Shown piece by piece: positions 28,088 to 30,749 of a stretch of 64,000 bases of DNA (position 1 is its first letter; each line of letters begins with the position of its first letter). A program made the position numbers and the translations under genes. Source of the DNA: Gaiellales bacterium (lineage in GTDB: Bacteria; Actinomycetota; Thermoleophilia; Gaiellales; JAICJC01); contig DASUHM010000054.1 in the NCBI GenBank assembly GCA_036273515.1, positions 16,277 to 80,276 on the forward strand, written 5' to 3'. A model generated the notes under the pieces. It saw only the letters and a list, made by a program, of their open reading frames with translations, did not search any database and had not been told where the DNA came from.

Positions 28088-29776
28088 TCATCGCACGTCG
28101 ACGTGGCGGGCGCCGAGCGCAGCCGCGAGCGTCCGGTGCGCGGGGGCTGTCCCGACCACGGTCGAGCGAGCCGGATCGAGCGTGTGCGCCCGGCAGAACG
28201 CAAGCGCGAGGCCGGGCAGCGGCGGCCGGCACCAGCACCGCGGCGGGCCGCCGGGATGCGGGCAGGCGGCGTGCTCGACCGGCCCTTGCACGGCAGTTTG
28301 GAGAACGTCCGCGGCTTCCTCTGCGGCCGACCCGCCATCCGGCGCCCAGTCGAAGACGAGGTGGGGCGCCGCCGGGTCAACCGCCGTGATCGCCCCGCGC
28401 CACGCCGGGCGCTCGAGGGCGGCCGCCGCCACGAGGACGCCGCCGGGCCGGACAGCTGACGCCACCCGCGCGAAGTCGATCTCCTCGACGGCCGCGAAGC
28501 CCTCGTCGAGCGCCGGCGGCTCCAGCTCTCGCACGGTCCGCATCTGCCCCGTCGGCGCGAGCAGCCATGGCTCCTTGCGAGCCGCCGCCCGCAGCTCGGC
28601 GGGCGTCGGCAGCGCCCCGAAGCGCTCGAGCAGCCGCTCCACCATGTTCACCTGGGCCTGGGCGAGCGGCGTCCGCAGCCAGACACAGCGCACCTCGAGG
28701 CCGTGGCGGGCGGCGGCGTCGACGACGTGGCTGCGCGCCGCCCGGGTCAGGTAGGTGTTGTCGAGGACGACCCGGCGGGCGCCCGCCGCCAGGCGCTCGT
28801 CGAGGGCCGTCGCAAGCGCTTTCAGCGACCCGCCGCGCTCGTCCCGGTTCAGGCGCTCGTAGCCGCGCTCGGCGTACTCACGCGCGAGGCGGGTCTTGCC
28901 CGCGCCGGGGATGCCCATGACGATCACCGCCTCCCCGCCGCCTGCTGCTTTGCGGCGCGGTGCCCGCCGGACCGTCCCAAACGCCCGGGCCAGGCGCTCC
29001 CGCTCGTCATCGCCGAGGATGACCGAGGCCGCCCGGGCCGCGGAGCGCGCCGTCTCCGGCCGGCGGGCGCCCGGGATCGGCACAACGAGCGGCGAGAGGT
29101 CGAGCAGCCAGGCCAGCGCCACCTCGGCCGCGGTCAGGCCGCGCGCCCCGCCGACCGCGGCCAGCTCGGTCCGGCGGGCCAGCGCCGGCGCGCGGCGGGG
29201 GCCGCCCAGCGGCGCATGGGCGATCACGGCGATGCCGGCCTCGGCGCAGCGCTCCACCACCCCGCCGCGCAGCGCCCGGTCGTCGAGCGGGCCGAGCGCG
29301 ACCGAGACGGCCGCGATCGGCGCGAGCGCGAGCGCCTCGTCCAGCTGGTCGCGGCTCACGTTCGCGACGCCGACGCGGCGCACGAGCCCCTCGTCGGCGA
29401 GCCGGGCGAGCGCCCGAAGCGACGTTCGCCACGGCGTGCGCGGGTCGGGCGCGTGGAGCAGGTAGCAGGCGATCGGGACGCCGTCCAGGGCGGCCAGGCT
29501 GGCCTCGCAGTCGGCCCTGACCGCCCTGGCCCGGCCGTCCGCGACCCAGGCACCTTCCGGCCGCGTCATCCCGCCCTTGGTGACGATGTGCGCCCGGTCG
29601 GCCGCCCCGCAGGCGCGCAGGGCGCGGACGAGCAGGCGCTCGTTGTGCCCGAGGTCGGCGGCGTCGAGCCCGTACGCCCGGGCGGTGTCGAACACCGTGA
29701 TCCCGGCGTCGAGCGCGGCCGCGATCGTCTCGAGCGCGCGGGCCTCGGAGCGATCCGGGTCGGTCGAGAGCCGCAT
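28088..29776 (-). CDS. Fusion: aldo-keto reductase, polynucleotide-kinase-like P-loop kinase, HAD-like zinc domain
   Basis: A 562-residue three-part protein. Residues 1-270 are an aldo-keto reductase with the full tetrad Asp30 (FDTARAY), Tyr35, Lys67 (IVTKGG) and His108 (YLLHAPD). Residues 280-440 are an AAA_33/Pnkp-type kinase: Walker A GIPGAGKT at 288-295, NRDERGGS and VVLDNTYLTRAARS. Residues 445-562 resemble the HAD phosphatases HisB-N and GmhB: the zinc knuckle Cys505-x-His507 / Cys514-x-Cys516 then RPPLPGLALAF and STVVGTAPAHRTLAAALGA, but the DxDxT nucleophile motif is absent. The reading frame is uninterrupted. The ATG at 29776 omits the usual first strand (SRVGLGC lies just upstream without a start codon). 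Confidence 0.8.
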   Translation of the reverse strand: MRLSTDPDRSEARALETIAAALDAGITVFDTARAYGLDAADLGHNERLLVRALRACGAADRAHIVTKGGMTRPEGAWVADGRARAVRADCEASLAALDGVPIACYLLHAPDPRTPWRTSLRALARLADEGLVRRVGVANVSRDQLDEALALAPIAAVSVALGPLDDRALRGGVVERCAEAGIAVIAHAPLGGPRRAPALARRTELAAVGGARGLTAAEVALAWLLDLSPLVVPIPGARRPETARSAARAASVILGDDERERLARAFGTVRRAPRRKAAGGGEAVIVMGIPGAGKTRLAREYAERGYERLNRDERGGSLKALATALDERLAAGARRVVLDNTYLTRAARSHVVDAAARHGLEVRCVWLRTPLAQAQVNMVERLLERFGALPTPAELRAAARKEPWLLAPTGQMRTVRELEPPALDEGFAAVEEIDFARVASAVRPGGVLVAAAALERPAWRGAITAVDPAAPHLVFDWAPDGGSAAEEAADVLQTAVQGPVEHAACPHPGGPPRCWCRPPLPGLALAFCRAHTLDPARSTVVGTAPAHRTLAAALGARHVDVR

Positions 29777-29828
29777 GCAACCCAGGCCGACGCGCGAGGC
29801 GTCCGGGCCCGGCCACGCGGGCTCGCCG

Positions 29829-30749
29829 CTAGCCGTCGTACCGCACCGCGGTCGTATACGCCGGGTCGGCGTGGCGCGCCCAGTAGCGCTCGCGCAGGTC
29901 GAGCGTGCGCGCGCCCGGCGCGCCCGTCCCGACCGGGCTCCCGTCCACGGCGGTCACGGGGATCACGCCCCCGGCCGTGGAGGTGACGAACACCTCGTCG
30001 GCCCGGCGCACATCGTCAGCCGGAAGGGCCCCCTCCTCGACCGGCGCGCCGGCCTCGCGCATGAGCTCGATCGCCGTGCGCCGGGTGATGCCGTGGAGCG
30101 TCCCGGCGGCGGGCGTGCGCCAGGCGCCGTCGACGAGCGCGAACACGTTGAAGCCCGGCCCCTCGGTCACGCCGCCCTCACGGTCGCGCAGGACGACGAG
30201 CTGGACGTCGTGCTCGTATGCGGCGAACAGGGCCATGTCCATGTCGAGCCAGTGAGAGTTCTTGACGAGCGGGTCGACGCTGTCAGGCGGGATGCGGGGG
30301 ATGTCCGAGATCCACAGGCCGACGCCGGTCGTCGTCTGCTGCTCGGGCGTCGCGATCCAGACGAACGGGACGGCGTAGCCGTAGAAGCTGTTCTTGGCCG
30401 TGCGCAGGTCGCGGCTGCCCTGGGGCAGGCGCCCGCGCGTGCAGGTCATCGACACGTAGGCCGATCGCAGGCCCGCGCGGCGCACACACCCGTGCAGGAC
30501 GTCCTCGATCGCCGCCCGGTCGACGCCCGGATCGAGCCGCAGACGGCGCATGTTCGCCGTGAAGCGGTCGAGATGCGCGTCGAGGCGGAAGAAGCGGCCG
30601 TCCCAGACGTGCACGACGTCGTACGTGCAGTCACCTCGCGTAACGCCGAGGTCGACCACCGAGATACGCGCCTCGTCGATCGGGCAGAACTCGCCGTCGA
30701 CGAACGCCGCACCCCGCTCCCAGAGCGCGTTTGCATCGCTCACGTCCAC
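29829..30749 (-). CDS. Class IV PLP aminotransferase (BCAT/D-amino-acid/amine transaminase type)
   Basis: A 306-residue fold-type IV enzyme. GVTRGDCTYDVVHVWDGRFF and LDAHLDRF near the N-terminus and VKNSHWLDMDMALFAAYEHD (with the PLP lysine) identify the family. GPGFNVFALVDGAW and THGITR-like LHGITRRTAIELM hold the phosphate cup. The combination FYGYAVPFVW is more like the R-selective amine or D-amino-acid transaminases than true branched-chain enzymes; the substrate is unresolved. GTG start, divergent from the MetE-like gene; 53 bases separate it from the downstream fusion gene. Confidence 0.85.
   Translation of the reverse strand: MDVSDANALWERGAAFVDGEFCPIDEARISVVDLGVTRGDCTYDVVHVWDGRFFRLDAHLDRFTANMRRLRLDPGVDRAAIEDVLHGCVRRAGLRSAYVSMTCTRGRLPQGSRDLRTAKNSFYGYAVPFVWIATPEQQTTTGVGLWISDIPRIPPDSVDPLVKNSHWLDMDMALFAAYEHDVQLVVLRDREGGVTEGPGFNVFALVDGAWRTPAAGTLHGITRRTAIELMREAGAPVEEGALPADDVRRADEVFVTSTAGGVIPVTAVDGSPVGTGAPGARTLDLRERYWARHADPAYTTAVRYDG

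Follow-up and report, generated by a model that had tools for sequence, protein, structure and literature searches.

A predicted aldo-keto reductase, PNKP-like kinase and HAD-like pseudo-phosphatase fusion as a candidate DNA end-healing enzyme

A 64,000-nucleotide stretch of a Gaiellales bacterium assembly (contig DASUHM010000054.1, positions 16,277 to 80,276; hereafter the window) carries on its minus strand, at 28088..29776, a gene of 562 codons plus a stop, with its ATG at 29776. The product combines an aldo-keto reductase (AKR), a kinase resembling that of mammalian polynucleotide kinase-phosphatase (PNKP) and a C-terminal HAD-like part with a zinc-knuckle pattern. The frame runs from 29776 to 28088 without interruption, as the original prediction made from this DNA had stated, and sits inside a 621-codon open frame. 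Along the minus strand the protein is predicted to comprise the AKR domain (residues 1-262; 28991..29776), a linker rich in Arg, Ala and Pro that varies in length (residues 263-281; 28934..28990), the P-loop kinase domain (residues 282-440; 28457..28933) and a HAD-IIIA-like pseudo-phosphatase domain (residues 441-562; 28091..28456). Pfam and NCBIfam matches and 237 further listed homologues confirm that the fusion is real, and the residues singled out earlier (D30, Y35, K67 and H108; GIPGAGKT at 288-295; C505, H507, C514 and C516) were correctly named.

At E ≤ 0.001 a protein search found 4,228 matches, many of them possibly through the AKR alone; the 120 best, which were listed, all contain both Pfam domains, at 66-100% identity. 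A second search, started from a diverged homologue in another class of the phylum (L060, 57% identity in the kinase-HAD part), listed 120 proteins, again all with both Pfam domains, 118 of them new. Together the two best-120 lists contain 238 distinct proteins, counting the window's own cluster; since each search listed its top matches only, close relatives are over-represented in this sample. In all 238 the AKR tetrad, the P-loop lysine, Asp312 and the four predicted zinc ligands are kept, and the two nucleophile-motif aspartates and the lysine of HAD phosphatases are absent. Judged by these alignments, the AKR, PNKP-like kinase and HAD-like protein constitutes a conserved family with the same three-part layout in more than 200 relatives. 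The architecture that the original prediction proposed to look for in related genomes was thus found, and its statement that no such case was known does not stand: public databases hold many such AKR-kinase proteins, under generic labels. The listed relatives of this much-sequenced family are called only "aldo/keto reductase" or "aryl-alcohol dehydrogenase-like predicted oxidoreductase/predicted kinase". The parts are of known kinds; the three-part architecture with an invariant pseudo-HAD is new to the open-licence PMC literature that was searched, in which we found neither a description of the family or its architecture, nor the invariant pseudo-HAD, nor a link to LigD.

Ten of the 399 sampled genomes of the class, that of the window included, hold the fusion, and carriers amount to 9 of 146 genomes in one family and 5 of 103 in a second. 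Across the phylum, matches came from 4 of 396 sampled genomes: the window's own, that of a single additional fusion (L060), and two whose match is limited to a HisB-like C-terminus. Four contigs of named genomes were also found, one from Thermoleophilia, two from Solirubrobacterales and one from a metagenome-assembled genome of Dormibacterota.

At the 18 loci examined, 17 in genomes and one on the Dormibacterota contig, the AKR, the kinase and the HAD-like part lie in one open frame at 13, contig ends cut two (L057 and L075), and three copies are broken. Among the latter, L043 (genome G377) has an in-frame TAG, L058 (G343) a split frame, and in L059 (G283) the frame is 256 codons long and has the AKR and zinc motifs, with no P-loop or NRD motif found between them; the three copies may reflect decay of an accessory gene or errors of assembly. 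An arrangement of relatives as two separate genes, raised as a possible objection in the original prediction, was therefore not what these loci hold. Median pairwise ratios of nonsynonymous to synonymous substitution (dN/dS), calculated by the Nei-Gojobori method and rough in view of a high pS of about 0.5, came to 0.27 in the AKR, 0.28 in the kinase, 0.36 in the HAD-like part as a whole, 0.23 in the zinc region of that part and 0.74 in the linker; purifying selection acts on each of the three domains. The calculation used 10 of the 12 loci supplied, and L040 and L041 dropped out through a miss of the motif filter and not through any break in the gene.

That two proteins have been read as one through a gene-calling artefact is very improbable. 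A query with the kinase-HAD part only, under a length rule that lists no full-length proteins, yielded 120 shorter models; 62 of them have no precomputed AKR domain and 13 start at the P-loop methionine, which, with the three broken loci, would fit such an artefact. Against it, 79 of the 120 start inside the AKR, 31-290 residues before the P-loop, and only six start in the linker; a further 17 start within the first kinase strand, and five have no P-loop by pattern. Starts so scattered indicate truncated or fragmentary models and not a separate kinase gene. Moreover, a protein beginning at the P-loop methionine would lack the first kinase strand, and one frame is kept at 13 of the 18 loci.

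For the HAD-like domain, a predicted structure model, a check that the original prediction had suggested, confirms the HAD Rossmann fold, with GmhB and HisB-N among the nearest folds; the NCBIfam Histidinol-ppas match is weak (residues 502-558, 18.6 bits for a cut-off of 84.15). The zinc-knuckle pattern CPH...CWCRPPLPG (residues 505-522; 28211..28264) retains its four predicted ligands, C505, H507, C514 and C516, together with Pro518, in 238 of 238 proteins. The catalytic motifs are not retained. VLVAAAAL (residues 447-454; 28415..28438) replaces the hhhDxDxT nucleophile motif, with an aspartate at 450 or 452 in none of the 238; Pro518 stands at the position of the motif-III lysine; and VGTAPAH (residues 541-547; 28136..28156) replaces motif IV, VGDxxxD, with an aspartate at 543 in one protein and at 547 in one. 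The window thus has Ala450, Ala452, Pro518, Thr543 and His547 at the HAD catalytic sites, and the loss of DxDxT reported in the original prediction extends to motifs III and IV. The HAD-IIIA zinc phosphatases GmhB and HisB-N, which act on small molecules, share the fold and the C-x-H ... C-x-C pattern with the fusion, but in the fusion family the nucleophile aspartate and the lysine are replaced in all 238 proteins and each motif-IV aspartate in 237. The likeness to a working kinase-phosphatase that had been drawn earlier is therefore not supported, and the domain is best described as a predicted pseudo-phosphatase lacking key catalytic residues. As a HAD phosphatase fold that keeps its zinc-ligand pattern under selection and has lost its nucleophile, it is a clean example. 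The two phylum proteins that match by their C-terminus only (L061 and L062) were considered as an ancestral fusion with a working HAD and rejected: they are HisB-N-like, with motifs intact by eye and a lysine where the fusion has Pro518, and are not relatives of the whole fusion. One of them lies in frame with a part that by eye is glycosyltransferase-like.

The AKR domain matches Pfam PF00248 (Aldo_ket_red) over residues 10-262 (E = 9.6e-40; 136.9 bits for a curated cut-off of 24), and its tetrad, D30, Y35, K67 and H108, is invariant among the 238 listed proteins. The top fold and sequence matches are AKRs, among them perakine reductase (3v0s), AKR13B2 (8hnq), Tm1743 (5dan) and the pyridoxal reductase PdxI (8te8), which share the barrel and the tetrad; these four are single-domain enzymes with chains of 274-337 residues, whereas the AKR of the fusion continues straight into the kinase. 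The best NCBIfam AKR match, to the PRK10376 oxidoreductase subfamily (86.9 bits), is under its cut-off. Given the invariant tetrad and these matches, the domain is predicted to be a working reductase. The genes flanking the nearest unfused AKRs, eight of which were examined by eye, were uninformative.

Kv-beta AKRs are thought to regulate channels by sensing NADPH/NADP+, and by analogy the AKR of the fusion might mainly sense this ratio and regulate the kinase. A weak NCBIfam Kv_beta match (22.4 bits) and an AKR-kinase linker that varies in length and sequence would suit such a role, which we nevertheless regard as improbable, since the four catalytic residues are invariant: the same proteins have dropped the HAD nucleophile and lysine, so the tetrad, too, could easily have been lost if its catalysis were unused.

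In the full-length fold search the best 50 matches listed were all AKRs, so the identity of the kinase rests on sequence. Pfam AAA_33 matches residues 284-384 (E = 2.9e-13), and NCBIfam PNK-3'Pase (TIGR01663) matches residues 281-438 at 59.2 bits, far below its cut-off of 502.8 bits. Compared with all PDB sequences, the domain gave six distinct matches at E ≤ 0.01. Five are mammalian PNKP constructs (in effect one protein; best E = 4.2e-9), and the sixth is a fungal protein named "kinase" (9d8a). T4 Pnk was not among the matches at E 0.01. The PNKP alignment spans the NRD motif and the post-core segment (RELEPPALDEGF in alignment with KQFEPPTLAEGF). The Walker A motif GIPGAGKT (residues 288-295; 28892..28915) keeps K294 in 238 of 238 proteins and Ser/Thr at 295 in 223, and a few relatives may for the latter reason be weak or inactive kinases. 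The NRD motif (residues 310-312; 28841..28849) aligns with that of mammalian PNKP, and its D312, which we take to be the catalytic base, is present in all 238. Mammalian PNKP shares the P-loop kinase sequence and the NRD motif with the fusion but places its HAD domain before the kinase; in the fusion the HAD-like part follows the kinase, an AKR is added, the zinc-ligand pattern is kept, the nucleophile motif is missing, and the score lies below the TIGR01663 cut-off. T4 polynucleotide kinase-phosphatase is an active phosphatase without an AKR, and its nucleophile motif, too, is absent from the fusion.

These features led us to propose that the fusion heals DNA ends reductively, taking a 5'-aldehyde via a 5'-hydroxyl to a 5'-phosphate, a reading to which we assign a probability of roughly 0.4. 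From the chemistry of the families, the AKR would bind NADPH and reduce the C5' of an aldehyde terminus from -CHO to -CH2OH, and the kinase would use ATP to phosphorylate the resulting 5'-hydroxyl in the manner of PNKP; the reductase is placed first because its product belongs to the substrate class of the kinase. The pseudo-HAD, having lost 3'-phosphate removal, may dock the DNA end or the partner strand, and the 5'-phosphorylated end could be handed to gap filling and ligation in end joining of the LigD/Ku type. We chose the nucleoside 5'-aldehyde because it appears, among the break termini that two reviews describe (PMC12564780 and PMC3825254), to be the only one for which reduction alone gives a polynucleotide kinase substrate. 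According to the first of these, 5'-aldehyde ends arise by oxidation of DNA at C5', for example by radiation, are the major product of neocarzinostatin and last for days, and the only repair described for them is non-specific and in vitro (PMC12564780); the other, a 2012 review on mammalian cells, calls the resolution of the 5'-aldehyde at double-strand breaks essentially unknown (PMC3825254). A conserved protein joining an AKR to a PNKP-like kinase is a clonable candidate for a direct-reversal route to such ends, and activity on a 5'-aldehyde, if demonstrated, would be new repair chemistry. Tentatively, and as a possibility we consider somewhat doubtful, the fusion may go further and be a direct-reversal enzyme for 5'-aldehyde DNA ends and the first reductase known to act on DNA termini, running 5'-CHO to 5'-OH to 5'-phosphate on one chain, with a HAD domain that has changed from phosphatase to zinc-stabilised clamp for DNA ends; radical- or enediyne-broken ends would then be religated without loss of nucleotides.

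The aldehyde could also be a different one. A healer of DNA or RNA ends might quench reactive 3'-unsaturated aldehyde, 3'-phosphoglycolaldehyde, abasic or 5'-dRP ends with its AKR, the kinase separately restoring the 5'-phosphate. The kinase and context evidence is the same as for the 5'-aldehyde, two loci have an ExoIII-type gene nearby, and these end types are listed in PMC12564780 and PMC3825254. We find this variant unlikely. Once reduced, these ends would stay blocked, and their products are not polynucleotide kinase substrates, so that the fusion of reductase and kinase is less well explained.

The context evidence for DNA end healing comes from the 17 carriers, that is, the genomes of the whole-genome set that hold all or part of the fusion. 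In three of them a LigD-type polymerase gene, of the kind used in non-homologous end joining, stands beside the fusion, in two independent arrangements that suggest a link to bacterial LigD/Ku end joining. In G371 and G773, of one genus, a same-strand gene for a LigD primase-polymerase (PF21686; E = 6.7e-87 in G371, 3.6e-88 in G773) follows the fusion, overlapping it in G371, and a convergent ExoIII-type gene lies beyond in both. In G329, from another family, a same-strand LigD polymerase gene (E = 1.1e-90), an HHH_8/PHP/HHH_5 gene whose product we read as PolX-like, and a TfoX_N gene precede the fusion, with 2.1 kb between the end of the polymerase gene and the fusion. As a control, AKRs within 5 kb of a LigD polymerase were counted: 3 of the 14 fusion AKRs, against 2 of the 136 other AKRs listed from these genomes, lie that close (p = 0.006 by a one-sided Fisher test that treats loci as independent). 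Among the open-licence papers listed on LigD, polynucleotide kinase, AKRs and end joining, no coupling of LigD with an AKR-kinase was found, as judged by titles and the starts of abstracts.

The main rival is a small-molecule reductase-kinase, in which the AKR would make a primary alcohol from a metabolite aldehyde, the kinase would phosphorylate that alcohol and the HAD-like domain would bind the product. Metabolite reductases are among the closest AKR structures, the best NCBIfam match is to PRK10376 at its sub-threshold score, the nearest HAD folds include the small-molecule enzymes GmhB and HisB-N, a class IV aminotransferase gene abuts the window's copy, and no repair gene adjoins most loci. 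We still judge it rather unlikely: the PDB relatives of the kinase are all PNKP apart from the fungal 9d8a, with the post-core segment included in the match; BLAST clustering of the neighbours gave no cluster interpretable as a metabolic enzyme that recurs next to the fusion across unrelated genera; and a LigD polymerase gene has come to lie next to the fusion twice independently. Nucleic-acid end processing is accordingly the better supported of the functions offered in the original prediction, given PNKP as the kinase's PDB relative and the two LigD arrangements; nothing was found in support of moonlighting. Overall, the interpretation given in the original prediction is partly supported.

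Several observations weigh against a 5'-aldehyde end-healing enzyme. Its substrate is one that we infer, the closest AKRs of known structure (perakine reductase, PdxI and others) use small molecules, and 15 of the 238 relatives carry a different residue in place of the P-loop Ser/Thr. The fusion occurs patchily, in 10 of the 399 genomes sampled from the class, and is broken at 3 of 18 loci. LigD polymerase was not found on the fusion contig in 14 of the 17 carriers, that of the window included, some of these contigs ending nearby, and Ku occurs in 13 of the 17, several genomes being incomplete. LigD polymerase is present in 296 of 399 class genomes and in 17 of 17 carriers; being so common in the class, its co-occurrence says little and was dropped as evidence, and adjacency alone was used. 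In six other genomes of the G371/G773 genus the LigD-polymerase/ExoIII pair stands without the fusion (partly by eye), so G371 and G773 count as one event and the Fisher p is too small. The genes abutting the fusion are a class IV aminotransferase in the window and a SurE gene in the same-genus genome G001. Finally, in two genomes, G367 and G779, an unrelated AKR gene (L077:3770-4801 and L078:3115-4278) has a LigD polymerase at a distance of about 3 kb; the two AKRs do not match the fusion AKR at E 1e-3 and were kept as control background.

The genomes of these two AKRs hold their fusion elsewhere, and the LigD polymerase there is stand-alone. A stand-alone LigD polymerase convergent with an ExoIII-type gene was seen in eight genomes of one genus (L055, L071 and L077-L082; Pfam for two, the others by eye), and the pair is possibly a two-gene repair unit by itself.

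The start of the fusion gene probably lies upstream of the ATG at 29776. In other loci an in-frame conserved peptide (...AWLDPSELRIGLGC) precedes the same methionine; its counterpart in the window, AWPGPDASRVGLGC (29777..29818, minus strand), is a probable N-terminal extension forming the first barrel strand, and the predicted model has a strand there (model residues 11-13). No ATG, GTG or TTG was found at the expected upstream start in the window (29777-29831). In four relatives (L039, L040, L054 and L055) the in-frame NTG at the expected start is a CTG; the window has none. In G001 the SurE gene (L053:8255-9100) and the fusion share a single base at the likely GTG start of the latter. The representative of the window's cluster, P0001, differs from the window at residue 466.

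Upstream in the window lies the class IV aminotransferase gene (29829..30749, minus strand), co-directional and abutting, and treated here as a neighbour only. BLAST clustering found no neighbour common to most loci. A plasmid-borne gene was rejected, as the kinase-HAD part had no match in a plasmid collection; a defence system seems unlikely, PADLOC having given just two weak matches (E = 0.0069 and 0.0095). An ABC-transporter ATPase lies within some kilobases of the fusion in four loci. In G777 a RecC gene (Pfam; L075:1607-5026) lies about 1.4 kb downstream of the fusion fragment at the contig end, followed by an open reading frame that is RecB by eye. In three genomes of one genus, a small open reading frame (...VTDHAAERYRQRVRG...) lies downstream on the opposite strand (L039:6731-7069, L040:6719-7150 and L054:1333-1641).
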